From: Candidatus Binatota bacterium
Lineage (GTDB): Bacteria > Desulfobacterota > Binatia > UBA1149
NCBI GenBank assembly: GCA_012960245.1
Contig: DUBO01000049.1
Location: 1-64,000, forward strand
Direction: 5' to 3'
DNA: 64,000 bases
Shown: positions 49,834 through 58,392 of the stretch, in pieces
Numbering within the stretch: the first letter of the stretch is position 1
Layout: every line of letters starts with the position of its first letter
Notes under the pieces: generated by a model
Databases searched by the model: none
Seen by the model: only the letters and a program-made list of their open reading frames with translations
Told to the model about the DNA's origin: nothing
Program-made: the position numbers and the translations under genes

Positions 49834-52055
49834 AGCAACGGCTCCTGCTGCTCCCCGCCGCCGCCAGCAGGCCTGTCCGCGTCGGGAACCCCCGCGGCCT
49901 CGAACACAAAATCAGGCGGGCGGCCGGTTTCCCCGCCCATTCCTGCGGCGGCGCCCCTGCCCATGGCCACCAGCACGCTTATCCTGCCCCTGAACAGGTA
50001 GCCCAGCATGCTCAGGCCCAGCATGGCAAAGTAGCCGGGCACGAACACTAGCTTCTCGAGCAGGTCCAGCCGGCGCGAGCCCAGCTGCCACAGGTTGCGA
50101 GCCTTGAGGTAGGCCGCCAGTCCCGTCATGCCGCCGCCAAAGCCGCGCCAGCCGGTGTGCGCAATCTCGGCCCCGGGCTCCACCCTCGGTGGCATTCCTA
50201 CCCGCCGGGCACGCAGGCAGTAGTCCACTTCTTCGTAGTACGCGAAGTAAGCCTCCTCGAAGCCGCCCACGCGGTTGTATAAATCGCGGCTGATGAGCAT
50301 GGCACAACCCAGTACACCGCCTACCTCATAGCTGGTCTGTCTCGGTCGTCGCGGCCTGAGCAGGCTGCGTGGCAACCAGGCCACGGTGGCCCAGTAACGC
50401 TCGCCTATCGACGCACTATGGGCGCCCGGCCAATCGCGCGCTATCCTCGGGCCCACCGGCCCGCAGTGGGGATTGCGCCGGGCGCAGGCCACCAGCGAAC
50501 TTATGGCCGTGGGCGTGGGCAGCGTGTCCCCGTTGAGCACGAGCACGTACTGGCAACCGTCGCCGAACAGCGTCTTGAGCGCGGCGTTGTTTCCACCGGC
50601 GTAGCCGAGGTTCTCGTCGTTGAGTAACAACCGGGCCTCAAAGCGCCCCGCCATGCCGGCCTCAAGCTCGCGTCGATCGGCGGCTTGAGAAGCATTGTCG
50701 ACCACCATGACCCGCAGGTTTCCGTAATCGCTGCCGGTCACGGCCAGCAGGCAGCGCAGGGTGGCCCGCGCGCTGTTGAAATTGAGTATGACCACGCCCA
50801 CCAGTGCTTCGTCGTCCGCAGTGCTCTCGATGACGGCGGGCTCTCCGACGGCGGTTCCTTCGACGGCTGTCTGTTCAGCTGTTGTTGCTTCGCCCGAAAG
50901 TGGCCCGGCCCAGCAGCGGCCGAGTTCCTGGTCGCCGAAGCGCCCCGCTATCAGTTCGGCAGCCGCCTCGCCCAGGCTGCGACGGTGACCCGCGGTTGAC
51001 GCCAGCGAGCTTATCGCCGCGGCCAGCGCGCCGGCCTCGGCTTCGCACAGAACCAGGTCGCGACCGTCGGTAAACACCTCGCGCACGGCTTCACAGTCGG
51101 CCGTTATCACGGCACGGCCCACGGCCGCCCCCTGGTAGACCTTGTTGGGTATAACCATGCGCGATTTCACCGAGTCGCCGAACACGCCCAGCACGATGTC
51201 GGCCTTCTCTATGAGCGCGGGCAGTTGTTCGTAGTCTACCCAGTCCTCGAACTCGGCGACCGCGCCGCTCAGCCTGACTCGCTGCTCAAACTCCGCCCGT
51301 GCTTCGCCCGTTCCCACGAACACGAAGGACAGGTCGTCGCGGTCGGCCAGCTGCTCTACGGCAGCGGCGATCACGTCGGTGCCGTGCAGCGGCAGGTACT
51401 GACCGAACCACAGCACCCGCAAGCGCCCGGCTTCGTCGGGCTGCTCGGCTTCGTTGGGCTGCTCAGCTTCGTCAGGCCGCTCAGTGACAATGGAATCGGC
51501 GTCATCGCCGAACACCGCAGCGTCGGCACCAAGGTAGCAGACCACTACGCGTTCTTCGGCCACACCCAGCACGTCGACAAAATAGCGCCGGTGGGCCTGG
51601 GTGTCGACGACCACCACGTCGGCCGCCCGGCAGCTGAGCCTGTCGAGCAACCGCAGCGCGCGCGCCGCCATGCCGCCCCTTGAGTAGACACCACGGTCGT
51701 CAACGAGGGTCTCAGTGAGCGAGACCAGCGGCGCAAAAATCACCCTCGGGCCTTGACGCAGGCTCACCAGGCGCAGCAGCAATACGTCGAGCTGGCCGTT
51801 GAACCCCACTACGGCCACCGGCGTGCCGCCGCTTGTCCACCAACGACGGGTCAGCTTAACGGCGGCCGAGAGCCACCCTACCAGGCCCCTGAGCAGGCCA
51901 AGCGGCCCGAAGTACGCTGCGCCCTTATCACGGGTGTGCTCCCACACTGGCTCGTGGATTTCGACCAGCTCATAGCCGGCAGCTGCTATGGCCCTCGCGT
52001 AAATGCGATTGGCGCTGTGGCGGCGATTGTAGGTGCCAAAGAGGCAAGCCCTCAT
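49830..52055 (-). CDS. fused GT4-GT2 bifunctional glycosyltransferase
   Basis: This 741-residue protein joins two transferases. The GT4-like part (residues about 1-385) has [35 protein letters not shown] and [21 protein letters not shown] Thr/Glu/Ala-rich linker (about 387-415) leads to a GT2 part (about 418-690) with [46 protein letters not shown] and [21 protein letters not shown] small tandem repeat ([14 protein letters not shown]) interrupts the GT4 part near residue 196. The GT2 half is close to the separate GT2 at 47840-48739. Fusion suggests two consecutive sugar additions. Confidence 0.87.
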
Positions 52056-53050
52056 CTACCCGCCCGCTGCTCTTTCCCGCGTTGGCCATTCTCTCGTTGG
52101 CCATTCTCCGCCTCGCCGAGCTCGAGCCGGCGCACCCTGAGCAGGGTGTCTTCTAGCAATCGACGACTCGAACCTATCAGGTCGGCCACCATGCCTATGA
52201 GCACGGTCTGGAAACCAGCGAGCAACAGGACCGCTACCAGTATCAGCGATTGAATGTGTCCCTCGCCACCCGTGGTGAGGTAGTAGTAGAGAAAGCGTGC
52301 GCCCAGGGCCGAACCCGCAAGGAGCAGGGCCAGTCCTATGGCCGAAAAAAACCTCAGCGGTTCGTACAATGCGTAGATGCGCACGATGGTCGACAGGCTC
52401 TTGGTCAGGTAGGTAAAAGTGCGCGTAAAGAGCCGTGAAGGTCGCAGGTCGGGGTTGACCCCCACGGCCACGTGGGCAACCGATAGCTGCTTTTTGCCCG
52501 CCTGTATTATGGTCTCCAGGGTATAGGTGAAGTCCGAAACCACGTTCATGCGCAGCGCCGCTTCGCGCGAAAACGCGCGAAAACCGCTGGTCACGTCGGG
52601 TACGTTGGTGCCCGACACGCCGCGTACTATTGCCGACCCGATCGCCTGCAACAGCTTCTTGATCGGCGAGAAATGGGCCAGGGTCGAGGGCGCGCGGTCG
52701 CCCACCACCATGTCGGCCTCGCCCCTGAGAATAGGATCGACCAGCTGCTGTATGCAGGCGGCGTCGTACTGGTTGTCGGCGTCGGTGTTAACGATTATAT
52801 CGGCGCCCAGCCGCAGCGCTTTGTCGAGCCCGGTCGAAAAAGCCCGCGCCAGGCCCTGGTTTACCGGCACCCTGACCACGTGCTCAACACCCAGCTCGGC
52901 GGCCACCTCGGCCGTGCGATCGGTGCTGCCGTCGTCTACAACGAGAAACTCCACCTCGTCTACGCCGCGCAACACGCGCGGCAGCTCGGCCACGGTGGCT
53001 GGGAGCCATTGCTCCTCGTTGTAGCAGGGTATCTGTATGACCAGTTTCAC
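52052..53050 (-). CDS. GT2-family glycosyltransferase with C-terminal membrane anchor
   Basis: From the GTG at 53050 the protein has 332 residues (an upstream in-frame start at 53119 adds 23 unconvincing residues). The catalytic part has [53 protein letters not shown] and [17 protein letters not shown], a polyprenyl-phosphate-sugar-synthase-like pattern. Two membrane helices ([36 protein letters not shown]) follow, as in undecaprenyl-phosphate transferases of the GtrB type. It heads the long operon and overlaps the fused GT gene by four bases. It may charge a polyprenyl carrier with a second sugar. Confidence 0.87.
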
Positions 53051-53234
53051 TGGAATTCCGTTGGGTGGGCCCCCCGATCGAGGGGGCGATATATCCGGGC
53101 CGCAACGCGATTCTACCACGGTACAGCTGAGCGCGCAGGCGCGTATTTAGCTGCTGAGCGGGCACAGAAATCGCCCGTTACCCCCCCAACCGGGTAAAAA
53201 ACAGCGCGATAATCGAATGAACCGGCTTTTGGCC
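53051..53234. other. Upstream region of the glycan operon and the secreted-protein gene
   Basis: This part of the 356-base gap between two divergent starts holds no reading frame I can support. The promoter of the minus-strand operon is expected here but no clear boxes were found. The plus-strand promoter begins at 53235. Confidence 0.4.
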
Positions 53235-53264
53235 TTGACAACCGGCCTGCCAAGTTACTATAAA
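53235..53264 (+). promoter_or_regulatory. Consensus sigma70-type promoter of the cysteine-rich secreted protein
   Basis: A perfect TTGACA (53235-53240) is followed after 18 bases by TATAAA (53259-53264). It is the best-matching promoter I saw in the window. It implies an untranslated leader of about 135 bases before the ATG at 53407. The leader contains a hairpin, CGGAGC-TGCTTTT-GCTCCG (53336-53354), and ends with an AGGAGG ribosome site. High expression is inferred. Confidence 0.75.
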
Positions 53265-53406
53265 CGACGCAACTGGAACCTTACGACCGCTGCAGGGAAA
53301 TCTAGTCGAGTGACCGCCACCCCCGGGTGATTGGTCGGAGCTGCTTTTGCTCCGCGACTTTGCAGTCTTAGGCAGGCGGATCGTTTCCATAGGAGGAAAA
53401 AAAGCA

Positions 53407-54084
53407 ATGAAGAAATTTTCTATGTTCCTGGCGGCCGTTGCTCTGGTCGCATTTACTGCAGGTGTTTCCAACGCGGAAGATTGCCTGTTTGACAGCCCGG
53501 CGAAGGCCAAGGGCATCAAAGCGTCCATGGTTCGTGCGGTTGCGTCCTGCGTAGGTAGCGTTACCTACCCGGGCACCAACACCACCACGAGCACTGGTGG
53601 TACGCCTGGTTGCACCCCGCCTTTCTTTTACTCAGCCTACTCGTTCGGCCCCAAGGGCGCGTGCAGCTATTCCAACAAGGGTAAGACCGAAATACCTTGC
53701 AGTGATGGAGTAGAGGCAGAGTGCTACAACCTGACCCAATCGGTCAAGTGTAAGGATATCGTGGACATCGACGAGGTTACGCCGATCGATGGCGCTGCAG
53801 CCACTGGCTGGAGCCTGCAGTCTGTTACCCGTCCTACGGTTAACGACATAACGGCCGGAGTCGCGATCACCATCTTCGACTTCCCCGTGCAGAGCGTATT
53901 CCCTTGCATAAAGGGTTGCGGCAAAGGCAAGCTGAAGTTCAAGGGCGACACGAACACCCTGCTCGCCGGCCTGGGCCTGCCCCCCTTGGGTGTATGCTCG
54001 AGCCTCGCACCGCAGACCATCGTGGTGTCTGACCCTGACGGCAACCAGTTTGCTGTATTGGGCGGCGGCGGAACCGGCAGCTGA
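53407..54084 (+). CDS. secreted cysteine-rich protein of unknown function
   Basis: I do not recognise a family. The ATG at 53407 follows ATAGGAGGAAAAAAAGC, a strong ribosome site, and gives 225 residues. A Sec signal (KKFSMFLAAVALVAFTAGVS, cleaved about after NA) is followed by a mature part of about 204 residues. It has ten cysteines (AEDC, ASC, PGC, GAC, IPC, AEC, VKC, FPC, KGC, GVC), enough for five disulfides, and is rich in Gly, Thr and Ser. It has a consensus promoter, a leader hairpin and a strong terminator, so it is a single-gene unit and probably abundant. It sits between two glycan-related gene groups. Confidence 0.85.
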   Translation: MKKFSMFLAAVALVAFTAGVSNAEDCLFDSPAKAKGIKASMVRAVASCVGSVTYPGTNTTTSTGGTPGCTPPFFYSAYSFGPKGACSYSNKGKTEIPCSDGVEAECYNLTQSVKCKDIVDIDEVTPIDGAAATGWSLQSVTRPTVNDITAGVAITIFDFPVQSVFPCIKGCGKGKLKFKGDTNTLLAGLGLPPLGVCSSLAPQTIVVSDPDGNQFAVLGGGGTGS

Positions 54085-54132
54085 TAATCCCGGCGATCTC
54101 GCTGGCCTGACCAACAAGACTGCAAAGTCTAC

Positions 54133-54168
54133 CGGCGGCATCCCTCTCGGGGGGTGCCGCCTTTTTTT
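54133..54168 (+). terminator. Rho-independent terminator
   Basis: A GC-rich stem (GGCGGCA..CCC paired with GGG..TGCCGCC) with a short loop is followed by seven T residues. It begins 48 bases after the stop of the cysteine-rich secreted protein and ends its transcript. The downstream GT-C gene must have its own promoter or rely on read-through. Confidence 0.9.
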
Positions 54169-54291
54169 GTGCTCGCGGCATGGGGCTCCCCGAGGTCAGT
54201 TGTCGCCAGCAGGGTTGGCCACCTATTGCGTTCACCGACCACGGAGGGCAGCATTTCGGCGGGACACGGGCCGCAGTGTCCCGGCAAGCGC

Positions 54292-56373
54292 GTGAACCCC
54301 TCGGATCTGTTCAGACTATTGCTGGCACCGGTGTCGCTGTACCTGCTGCTGTACGGACCGGGCCAGGCCCTGCGTTCAACGCGCGGTACCGCCCTGCCCC
54401 CTGCATTCGGCCGCATGGCGCTGAGCGTGGCGTGGACCAGCGCCGTGGGGCTGCTGCTCGTTGCCGCGGGGTCTTACTCACTGCCCACCCTGCTGCTGGT
54501 CAACGCCGGCACCTGCCTCGTTGGCTACATGTCCAGGGGGCTGCGCCAACGCGACCCCGCTGACGGCAGAACTAGAGCCAGTGCGGGTCCGCTGGTAGCC
54601 CTGCTTGTACTCTGCCTCTACTGGCCCGCCTGGCAGACACAGCTGGCCTCCTGGGATTCGAGCGTTTACATGGCAGCGGGCAACCACCTGGCCCTTTCAG
54701 GCACGCTGGAGAAAGACGACCCCGTGGCCACTGGGCTCAACACGTTTACCCGGCGCAGGGTCTTCGGCTCTGTATGGCCGGGAGCCGCATGGAAACCGCC
54801 CTTCTCGCGCTTGCCTCACTCCATGATTCACATGAGTCACAACGACAGCGTGGCGCGCCCCGCCCATCACCCCCTACCAATGCTATGGGCTGCAATTTCC
54901 AGCGAGGTGGCCGGCCCCGCGCGCTCCGGCGCTTTCTCCGGGCTCATGCTTTCGCTCGCCGCCTGGGCACTGTGGATCTTCCTGCGCCGACGGGTACCCG
55001 CCGTGGCGGCCACGCTCGGCGTGCTCGGCCTGGCCTGCTCGGCCAGCTGGTACTACGCCGGGCACGTGGCCCTGCCGGCGCCGCTGGCCTGTTTCTTTAC
55101 CTGGGCAGGAATCGCCCTGCTCGACGGCTGGGAAGAAGAAGGCAGCAGCAGCGACGCCGGCCTGGCGGGGGTGATGCTCGGCATGGCGGCGGTGGCCCGC
55201 GTTGAGTTTGCACTGTTCGTGCTGGTGTCGCTGCTGGCCCGGGGCCTGTTGCGCCGCCACGGACTGGGTTGCCGGCCCCTGGCTCCTCGTTTTGCGGTCG
55301 GCCTGGGTGCGGCCTTCGCCCTGTTGGCAACCGAGCTGCTGCTGCTGCCCGCTGCCTGGACCGGCCCCCTAGACCTGGCGTTCACCTGGATGAAGGTAGG
55401 CGTGGTCTTTGCTGCGCTGAAGCAACCGGTGGCCGCCGGGCTGGTCAGCCTGGCGCTGTGCGCGCTGTGCGTGGTCGGGGCCAGGCGCCTGGGCCTGGCC
55501 AGGTTCTGCGCTACCGGCACGTTGGCGGCGCTACTCGCCGGCTTTGCCTGGGCGGGCAGGGCCGATGCCTTCGAACACATGCCCGGTTGGACGGTTGATT
55601 GGCTGGGATGGCCGCTGCTGTTGCTGGCTCCGCTGGGCTTGCGACTGGCGTGGCGAGAGCGGATGCGCCACACGGGCAACGGCTTCTTCCTGGTCTTCGG
55701 CGGCCTTACGGCCCTGCTGCTGTTCTACGACCCGCACGTGAGCACCATCATGCCCTGGGCCTCCAGGCGCATGGTTCCGGTGCTGGCGCCCATGCTGGTG
55801 GTGCTGGCCACGCTGGCCGTGTCGCGCATGGTGACCGAAAGCACGACAGCACGCGGCAGACTGGCCGGCGTGGCTGCCGGTGTCGCGCTTGCCGTCGGAC
55901 TGCTGCTGCCCGCCCAGCCCATGTGGGGTCGGCAGCCCTGGTCCGGTACCTGGACGCAACTGCGCGACTTCGCGGCTCTGCTTCCCGATGACGCCACGCT
56001 GCTGGTCGACTCCCGGCTCAACTACCTCGGGATGTCTGCCCCGCTCTGGCTAACCTGGCAGCGCGAGGTTGTGCCCGTGCAAGCCCACAACCGCAGGGGA
56101 GCCAACCAGGTGGCTGGCCTGACGCGACTGCTCGAAAAACGCGGGCCGGTGTACCTGGCACTGCCGGCCAAGCGCGCCCAGGACCGTCACATCCTTTTTA
56201 CGCGACAGGAGCACGTGGCTGACTTCACCTTTGAGCTGCTTCTGCCCCAGGCCAGCGAGTCTGCTCCGCCCCAACACTTTCACGTGTATCCGACGACTGT
56301 CTCGTTACTGCGCCTGGAGCCGGTCTATTTCAAACCACGACCGCCGGCCGCTGACCGCCCCGGCGCCGACTGA
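54292..56373 (+). CDS. GT-C-like multi-pass membrane protein, putative glycosyltransferase
   Basis: From the GTG at 54292 this is a 693-residue membrane protein with about twelve hydrophobic helices and a soluble last 160 residues. The reading frame continues upstream to 54154 but overlaps the terminator, so that part is not used. The first loop (WQTQLASWDSSVYMAAGNHLA) has an acidic-aromatic arrangement typical of GT-C enzymes. An EMPGWTVDWLG-type later loop and PLWLTWQREVVPVQAHNRRG in the tail are distinctive. It converges on the TMTC-like gene with 14 bases between stops. The donor and acceptor are unknown. Confidence 0.65.
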   Translation: MNPSDLFRLLLAPVSLYLLLYGPGQALRSTRGTALPPAFGRMALSVAWTSAVGLLLVAAGSYSLPTLLLVNAGTCLVGYMSRGLRQRDPADGRTRASAGPLVALLVLCLYWPAWQTQLASWDSSVYMAAGNHLALSGTLEKDDPVATGLNTFTRRRVFGSVWPGAAWKPPFSRLPHSMIHMSHNDSVARPAHHPLPMLWAAISSEVAGPARSGAFSGLMLSLAAWALWIFLRRRVPAVAATLGVLGLACSASWYYAGHVALPAPLACFFTWAGIALLDGWEEEGSSSDAGLAGVMLGMAAVARVEFALFVLVSLLARGLLRRHGLGCRPLAPRFAVGLGAAFALLATELLLLPAAWTGPLDLAFTWMKVGVVFAALKQPVAAGLVSLALCALCVVGARRLGLARFCATGTLAALLAGFAWAGRADAFEHMPGWTVDWLGWPLLLLAPLGLRLAWRERMRHTGNGFFLVFGGLTALLLFYDPHVSTIMPWASRRMVPVLAPMLVVLATLAVSRMVTESTTARGRLAGVAAGVALAVGLLLPAQPMWGRQPWSGTWTQLRDFAALLPDDATLLVDSRLNYLGMSAPLWLTWQREVVPVQAHNRRGANQVAGLTRLLEKRGPVYLALPAKRAQDRHILFTRQEHVADFTFELLLPQASESAPPQHFHVYPTTVSLLRLEPVYFKPRPPAADRPGAD

Positions 56374-58007: not shown

Positions 58008-58167
58008 GTTGAGATGATAGCCGCCTCGCGCGACCCCGCGAAGCGCCACCCGTCACCAGTGCAAGGCCGTAGCAGGGCCACGCTTTGCTTGCGCCCCTGC
58101 GTGGCCTGTGCAATTAAAAGAAACGCGGAGTCTCCGCATCAACAGACAACCTGGAGGTCCCATAAAG

Positions 58168-58392
58168 ATGAAAGCACCTATTCAAGCGGCGATGATAGTT
58201 ACCCTGGCCCTGGCCTTCACTGCCTGTGCCGGCATGCAGAGCTCCTCGAGCAAGGCCCGCAACCAGGGCGATGTAGCCGAGGCCGTGGCCCGTGCCGAGG
58301 CAGCAGCAGCAGCCGCCGAAGATGCAGCCCGCAAGGCCGAGACCGCTGCCGAAAAGTCCGAGGTTATTTTCCACACCGGCATGCAGAAGTAA
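58168..58392 (+). CDS. small alanine-zipper outer-membrane lipoprotein, Lpp/OprI-like
   Basis: This 74-residue lipoprotein starts at the ATG at 58168 after a CTGGAGG ribosome site. The signal ends in FTACAG (lipid-bearing Cys20). The mature part is a single predicted helix with heptad alanines (VAEAVARAEAAAAAAEDAAR), as in alanine-zipper trimers. The last residue is Lys, the residue that Lpp uses for its covalent link to peptidoglycan. It probably ties the outer membrane to the cell wall, but the link is inferred. It has no operon partner; the gene downstream is convergent. Confidence 0.8.
   Translation: MKAPIQAAMIVTLALAFTACAGMQSSSSKARNQGDVAEAVARAEAAAAAAEDAARKAETAAEKSEVIFHTGMQK

Follow-up and report, generated by a model that had tools for sequence, protein, structure and literature searches.

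A Binatia family of cysteine-rich secreted proteins beside glycosyltransferase genes, with a covarying 5'-3' UTR helix in one clade

Pairing between the 5' and 3' untranslated regions of a single bacterial mRNA is already a known kind of arrangement. In the hbs mRNA of Bacillus subtilis, a 14-nt pairing of the 3'UTR with the 5'UTR shields the 5'UTR from RNase Y (Braun et al. 2017, in PMC7821165). In the icaR mRNA of Staphylococcus aureus, the 3'UTR pairs at the Shine-Dalgarno (SD) sequence through UCCCCUG, and the message is repressed and cut by RNase III (PMC3868564). The autoregulatory small RNAs OppZ and CarZ of Vibrio cholerae derive from 3'UTRs and are processed from operons by RNase E (PMC7398697). 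The accessible text of the review PMC7821165 names few 5'-3' UTR closures, each a single experimental case, and describes the 3'UTRs of orthologous genes as mostly not conserved among Staphylococcus species; a narrow literature search for a covarying 5'-3' UTR helix across bacterial families found none. On the protein side, we compare our locus with the Pgf system of Streptococcus mutans, in which the glycosyltransferase PgfS modifies secreted surface proteins (PMC5856776). The order studied here, UBA1149, is placed within Binatota in PMC8262859, and in the accessible text of that paper the strings 'secret', 'glycosyl' and 'S-layer' each occur 0 times.

We analyse a gene in the first 64,000 nucleotides of contig DUBO01000049.1 (assembly GCA_012960245.1, Candidatus Binatota bacterium), a stretch we refer to as the window, together with its relatives in the class Binatia (loci are designated L, families f). 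A helix that keeps its position and its complementarity across three bacterial families despite changed letters would make mRNA closure testable by comparison, and the gene that bears the helix here also has strong expression signals. The secreted protein and its glycosyltransferase neighbour, in turn, would open a first way into studying the envelope of a class for which metagenome assemblies are the main source of knowledge. The features of the locus are as follows.

52052-53119, minus strand: GT2 glycosyltransferase of the polyprenyl-phosphate type, divergently transcribed
53235-53264, plus strand: promoter, with -35 box TTGACA (53235-53240), 18-nt spacer and -10 box TATAAA (53259-53264)
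53270-53406, plus strand: 5' leader, its start deduced from the position of the -10 box, strongly conserved across three species
53337-53353, plus strand: leader hairpin GGAGC-7-GCTCC, energy not exceptional
53356-53369, plus strand: 5' arm of the long-range helix, GACTTTGCAGTCTT, part of a perfect 14-nt inverted repeat flanking the gene
53391-53396, plus strand: SD sequence AGGAGG, read in the sequence
53407-54084, plus strand: secreted protein of 225 aa with 10 Cys, ATG at 53407, stop TGA at 54082-54084
54116-54129, plus strand: 3' arm of the long-range helix, AAGACTGCAAAGTC, immediately before the terminator
54134-54168, plus strand: intrinsic terminator and T-tract, stem 54134-54161 then T7, with equivalents in relatives
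54274-56373, plus strand: GT-C-like membrane glycosyltransferase, conserved as a neighbour and weakly matched by PMT_2, position of the start codon approximate

A preliminary description of this DNA had proposed a textbook promoter, a leader hairpin, a strong ribosome site and a strong terminator around the gene. All four are found at the positions listed, and these strong expression signals are conserved across the order. The promoter matches the consensus at 11 of 12 bases and the terminator stem has 12 pairs, 9 of them GC. A consensus promoter scan of the window gave 0 promoters, since it accepts only -10 boxes that end in T and the one here is TATAAA; that the promoter exceeds chance therefore follows from its conservation, given below, and not from the scan. 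The folding energy of the leader is ordinary (z -0.53 against shuffles) and an Rfam search of it returned nothing at gathering score, and we dropped a riboswitch reading on these two grounds. The CAI of the gene, 0.681, lies among those of 16 ribosomal and EF-Tu genes (0.595-0.745, mean 0.673), so codon usage is uninformative on expression here. The gene ends in tandem in-frame stops, TGA TAA (54082-54087), as it does in both sister species.

Is this protein an orphan without a recognised family, as had been supposed? As for a recognised family, the searches agree: Pfam gave 0 families for the window protein and, over 23 members, five families each matched by a single member (best E 0.011, none above its curated cut-off); the best NCBIfam match was PG1828 lipoprotein at 14.6 bits against a cut-off of 50; a PDB profile search reached at best E 0.66, over profile residues 13-43; and the viral contigs searched held no relative. 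The term orphan, on the other hand, has to be given up. The window protein belongs, by full-length similarity that includes C26, C48, C69 and C197, to a Binatia family from which we collected 41 near-complete sequences, with paralogues in many genomes. The family is absent from the libraries searched and appears new to description. The window's own genome has a single copy; two species of the same genus have proteins at 90-92% identity, and stronger matches elsewhere in the order and in family f17 lie at 29-48%. With a profile of 23 sequences, 32 of 148 class genomes match at E<=0.001: the family is present in all 13 genomes listed for the genus and order and in 6 of f17, and 13 weaker matches, mostly over the N-terminal part, fall in f7, f9 and f13. 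A search of the phylum (395 genomes) gave 6 matches at 1e-6, every one in the order or in f17. In f10, three remote members stand in tandem near a GT-C gene (L098:4405-6346, L104:35-1966).

The preliminary reading of a Sec-secreted protein of 225 residues with ten cysteines agrees with the 225 codons, the 10 Cys and an N-terminal signal-like stretch, MKKFSMFLAAVALVAFTAGVSNA, which was judged by eye. It had also suggested looking for paralogues with the same cysteine spacing, and paralogues do exist in many genomes. C26, C48, C69 and C197, all after the signal stretch, are invariant in a 23-row alignment of the family. The cysteines vary among members in sets. Among the 41 sequences, C26 and C197 are jointly present in 40 and jointly absent in 1; C86, C106 and C115 occur together in 32 and are missing together from 9, with C98 following except in four; and C167 and C171 are limited to the window's genus. 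Because cysteines are gained and lost in even, co-varying sets, disulfides are likely, and the sets would fit bonds 26-197, 48-69 and 167-171 plus two among 86, 98, 106 and 115. Structure prediction with three closely related proteins gave a mean pLDDT of 29.5, and its result was kept out of fold searches.

In the order, many genomes contain the gene in several copies, and one copy per genome, here called the core copy, adjoins a GT-C gene. The layout TTGACA-18-TATA precedes 17 of 18 core copies and 0 of 28 paralogues, a count that is partly circular, since the core set was first chosen by eye from promoters, and in which L051, a remote relative, and copies whose starts are uncertain are counted among the paralogues. 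By group, the layout is found in 13/13 core copies of the order and in 4/5 of f17, where L045 is without it. Independent backing comes from the GT-C neighbour, which selects the same set: in the window it lies beside the core copy, as it does in 16 of 17 further core loci, but 0 of 21 loci with paralogues only have it. In the one core locus without it, L048, the contig breaks off, and another contig of that genome (L066) has a fragment of the gene beside a GT-C gene. Core copies mostly sit on short branches, while paralogues are on longer, lineage-specific ones. Two groups have leader features of their own. The f17 core genes (L038, L041, L042, L045, L071) share a stretch that runs approximately GCCATCC..AACCA.CC..ACGA(A)GGAGGG and directly precedes the start codon. 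The f2 leaders share a folded domain near the 5' end, with 25 pairs, 7 of them with two-sided changes, and a covariation score reached by 0 of 500 shuffles, in a set of five sequences from which the structure itself was derived (L034:4416-4585, L048:4100-4270, L056:5199-5379, L062:5369-5545, L070:5371-5544).

The gene had been described as lying between glycan genes, and our annotation bears this out, with the GT-C gene at one side, the GT2 gene at the other and further glycosyltransferases nearby; upstream there are six GT2/GT4 genes, several of which recur beside core copies. The GT-C neighbour is a membrane protein of about 700 residues that matches PMT_2 at 18.7 bits, below the cut-off of 26.1, and has a DS..Y motif, putatively catalytic, that is conserved in no fewer than 16 of the 17 sequences aligned. 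For the GT2 protein, the nearest NCBIfam model is AglJ (TIGR04182), below its cut-off, and the PgfS model is also matched sub-threshold. The GT-C gene occurs in 39 of 148 class genomes, 20 of them outside the order and f17. Around 15 GT-C loci from other families, profile searches found a remote member of the secreted family in 7 at E<1e-3 and in 1 more at 0.012, and none in the remaining 7. At 58108-58392 the window has a small ORF that resembles a lipoprotein and weakly matches an alanine zipper.

The preliminary description overlooked the complementarity between the leader and the 3'UTR of this gene. We measured ungapped leader-3'UTR helices in 16 of the 18 core copies, dropping L048, which is without its 3' end, and L045, which is without the promoter that defines the leader. 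The helix is 14 bp in the window, 14 and 15 bp in the sister species, 10 bp in L052 (f4) and 12 bp in both L061 and L057 (f3), always 33-42 nt upstream of the ATG; the remaining ten copies have no comparable ungapped helix at that place. Against 500 shuffles, a helix as good arises 0 times for the window, 0 for L052, 4 for L061 and 33 for L057, whose bulged duplex is nonetheless better than all of 300 shuffles. When arms are swapped between lineages, the observed ungapped sum is matched in 9 of 50000 permutations for the nine lineages of the order and in 94 of 50000 for eleven lineages including f17, a measure we adopted after seeing that permutation of whole-UTR RNAduplex energies does not separate own from swapped arms (1907/20000), probably because long bulged duplexes drown the signal. 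At the fixed position, mismatched pairings equal the window, L052 or L061 in 0 of 132 cases and L057 in 1 of 132. Among 141 ORFs of the window and the loci, just two reach -22 kcal/mol and both are this gene (L003, L061), in a background where the ORF caller assigned other starts to the window and L052 copies, which were thus measured off their true place. The L057 ungapped helix (-18.3) falls within this background (-18 or lower in 22 of 141 genes), and the best helix among 25 paralogues is -18.7.

Folding of full-length transcripts predicts the same closure. Pairs with P>0.5 appear at -52 to -23 in 6/6 copies of f1, f3 and f4 (24, 21, 21, 10, 25 and 14 bp), and at this place in 0/6 f2 transcripts and in neither of the two f17 transcripts in the folding set (L041 and L071; L038 and L042 are outside it). 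In L041 a 22-bp 5'-3' pairing is predicted elsewhere, at -198 to -173 of the leader, and is without shuffle support. Its complementary UTR segments and the pairing predicted in the full transcript make the gene a candidate for the 5'-3' UTR paired kind. The letters of the arms change together: 93.3% of cells in the aligned arms are paired, a figure biased by the selection of the arms as best helices, and 8 of 12 pairs have two-sided changes, with a covariation score reached by 0 of 500 shuffles in an alignment of five rows, two of them from one genus. Since the helix is absent from f2 and the two f17 transcripts, the gene does not generally depend on it. The GT-C tree groups f1, f3 and f4 (83/76, moderate) apart from f2, so that the helix may have arisen once in those three families, or f2 may have lost it.

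How are these observations to be put together? The account we tentatively favour, and to which as a whole we give a little short of an even chance, is that the strong promoter would drive an abundant, Sec-exported, disulfide-stabilised protein that works with the adjoining GT-C enzyme and the nearby polyprenyl-phosphate sugar synthase, most likely as the main substrate of both outside the inner membrane. In f1, f3 and f4, leader sequence some 23-52 nt ahead of the start codon is computed to pair, with compensatory changes, with the 3'UTR close to the terminator, and the closed loop would most likely protect both leader and 3' end against decay of the RNase E/G type, giving a long-lived message. 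RNase E/G is found in the window's genome. The duplex is best read as protection, as in hbs, because it takes in leader sequence ahead of the SD together with the stretch that precedes the terminator, and leaves the SD and start regions of the window fold about half unpaired. The steady GT-C neighbour, with the polyprenyl-phosphate GT2 nearby, suggests a glycosylated exported protein, and a glycosylated envelope protein is our best guess for the product; the surface or matrix protein proposed in the preliminary description may likewise be right. Against this account, codon usage does not point to high expression, PMT_2 matches the GT-C protein below its cut-off, and the neighbouring glycosyltransferases could just be making a polysaccharide. 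It is rather unlikely, in our estimate, that the protein is an unglycosylated accessory or assembly protein for an exopolysaccharide of those neighbours; the recurring GT2/GT4 genes would fit such a role, but the steadiest partner is the GT-C gene, which elsewhere in the class is also found with remote relatives of the secreted protein.

The helix itself could act the other way, the 3' arm repressing its own gene, either through a loop beside the SD that, as in icaR, restricts translation or becomes the substrate of a double-strand nuclease, or through a 3'UTR small RNA that feeds back on the leader, as with OppZ and CarZ. The window duplex does end near the SD, 25 nt before the ATG, and can be extended into it in RNAduplex, and the 3' arm with the terminator would give a short RNA with a U-tract end. 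We nevertheless regard repression as unlikely: the full-length fold leaves the SD and start partly open, a strong conserved promoter and SD are an odd match for standing repression, and Hfq has 0 matches in the genome, which is 96.1% complete (about 4% missing). That the complementarity is chance, or a relic of the terminal repeats of a mobile element with no role in RNA, seems to us quite improbable. The absence from f2, the insignificant RNAduplex permutation and the small number of independent lineages, four, speak for it; however, differing sequences are still complementary at the same place in f1, f3 and f4, the arm-swap permutations seldom match them, and the 14-mer recurs perfectly nowhere else in the genome, on which ground we dropped a repeated element or trans targets. 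Its matches with <=2 mismatches number 13, close to the chance level, as the reversed control has 9. More doubtful than the favoured account, though bolder, is a class-wide reading: a fast-diverging secreted glycoprotein, possibly the main envelope protein, with a dedicated GT-C alongside, whose mRNA in one clade is a selected closed loop, the closure backed by covariation across genera in a genome where RNase E/G is present and neither Hfq nor RNase Y is seen.

Set beside the known systems, the locus shares something with each. With Pgf it shares a GT2 that resembles the PgfS model, sub-threshold; it differs in that no sequence relation to the Pgf substrate was found, that the partner is GT-C-like and that glycosylation would follow from gene neighbourhood. 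As with OppZ and CarZ, a 3'UTR segment pairs with its own transcript, but there is no sign here of a separate small RNA, and an Hfq-dependent one does not accord with a roughly 96% complete genome in which Hfq was not found. As in icaR, the mRNA's own 3'UTR pairs with its 5' region near the ribosome site; unlike icaR, the helix ends before the SD is reached, and a short 3'UTR of about 48 nt precedes the terminator. The closest likeness in form is to hbs, where also a 14-nt pairing joins the 5'UTR and 3'UTR of a single mRNA. Here the gene and the phylum are others, RNase Y, from which the hbs leader is protected, has 0 matches in the 96.1% complete genome, the effect is a predicted one, and the arms covary between genera.
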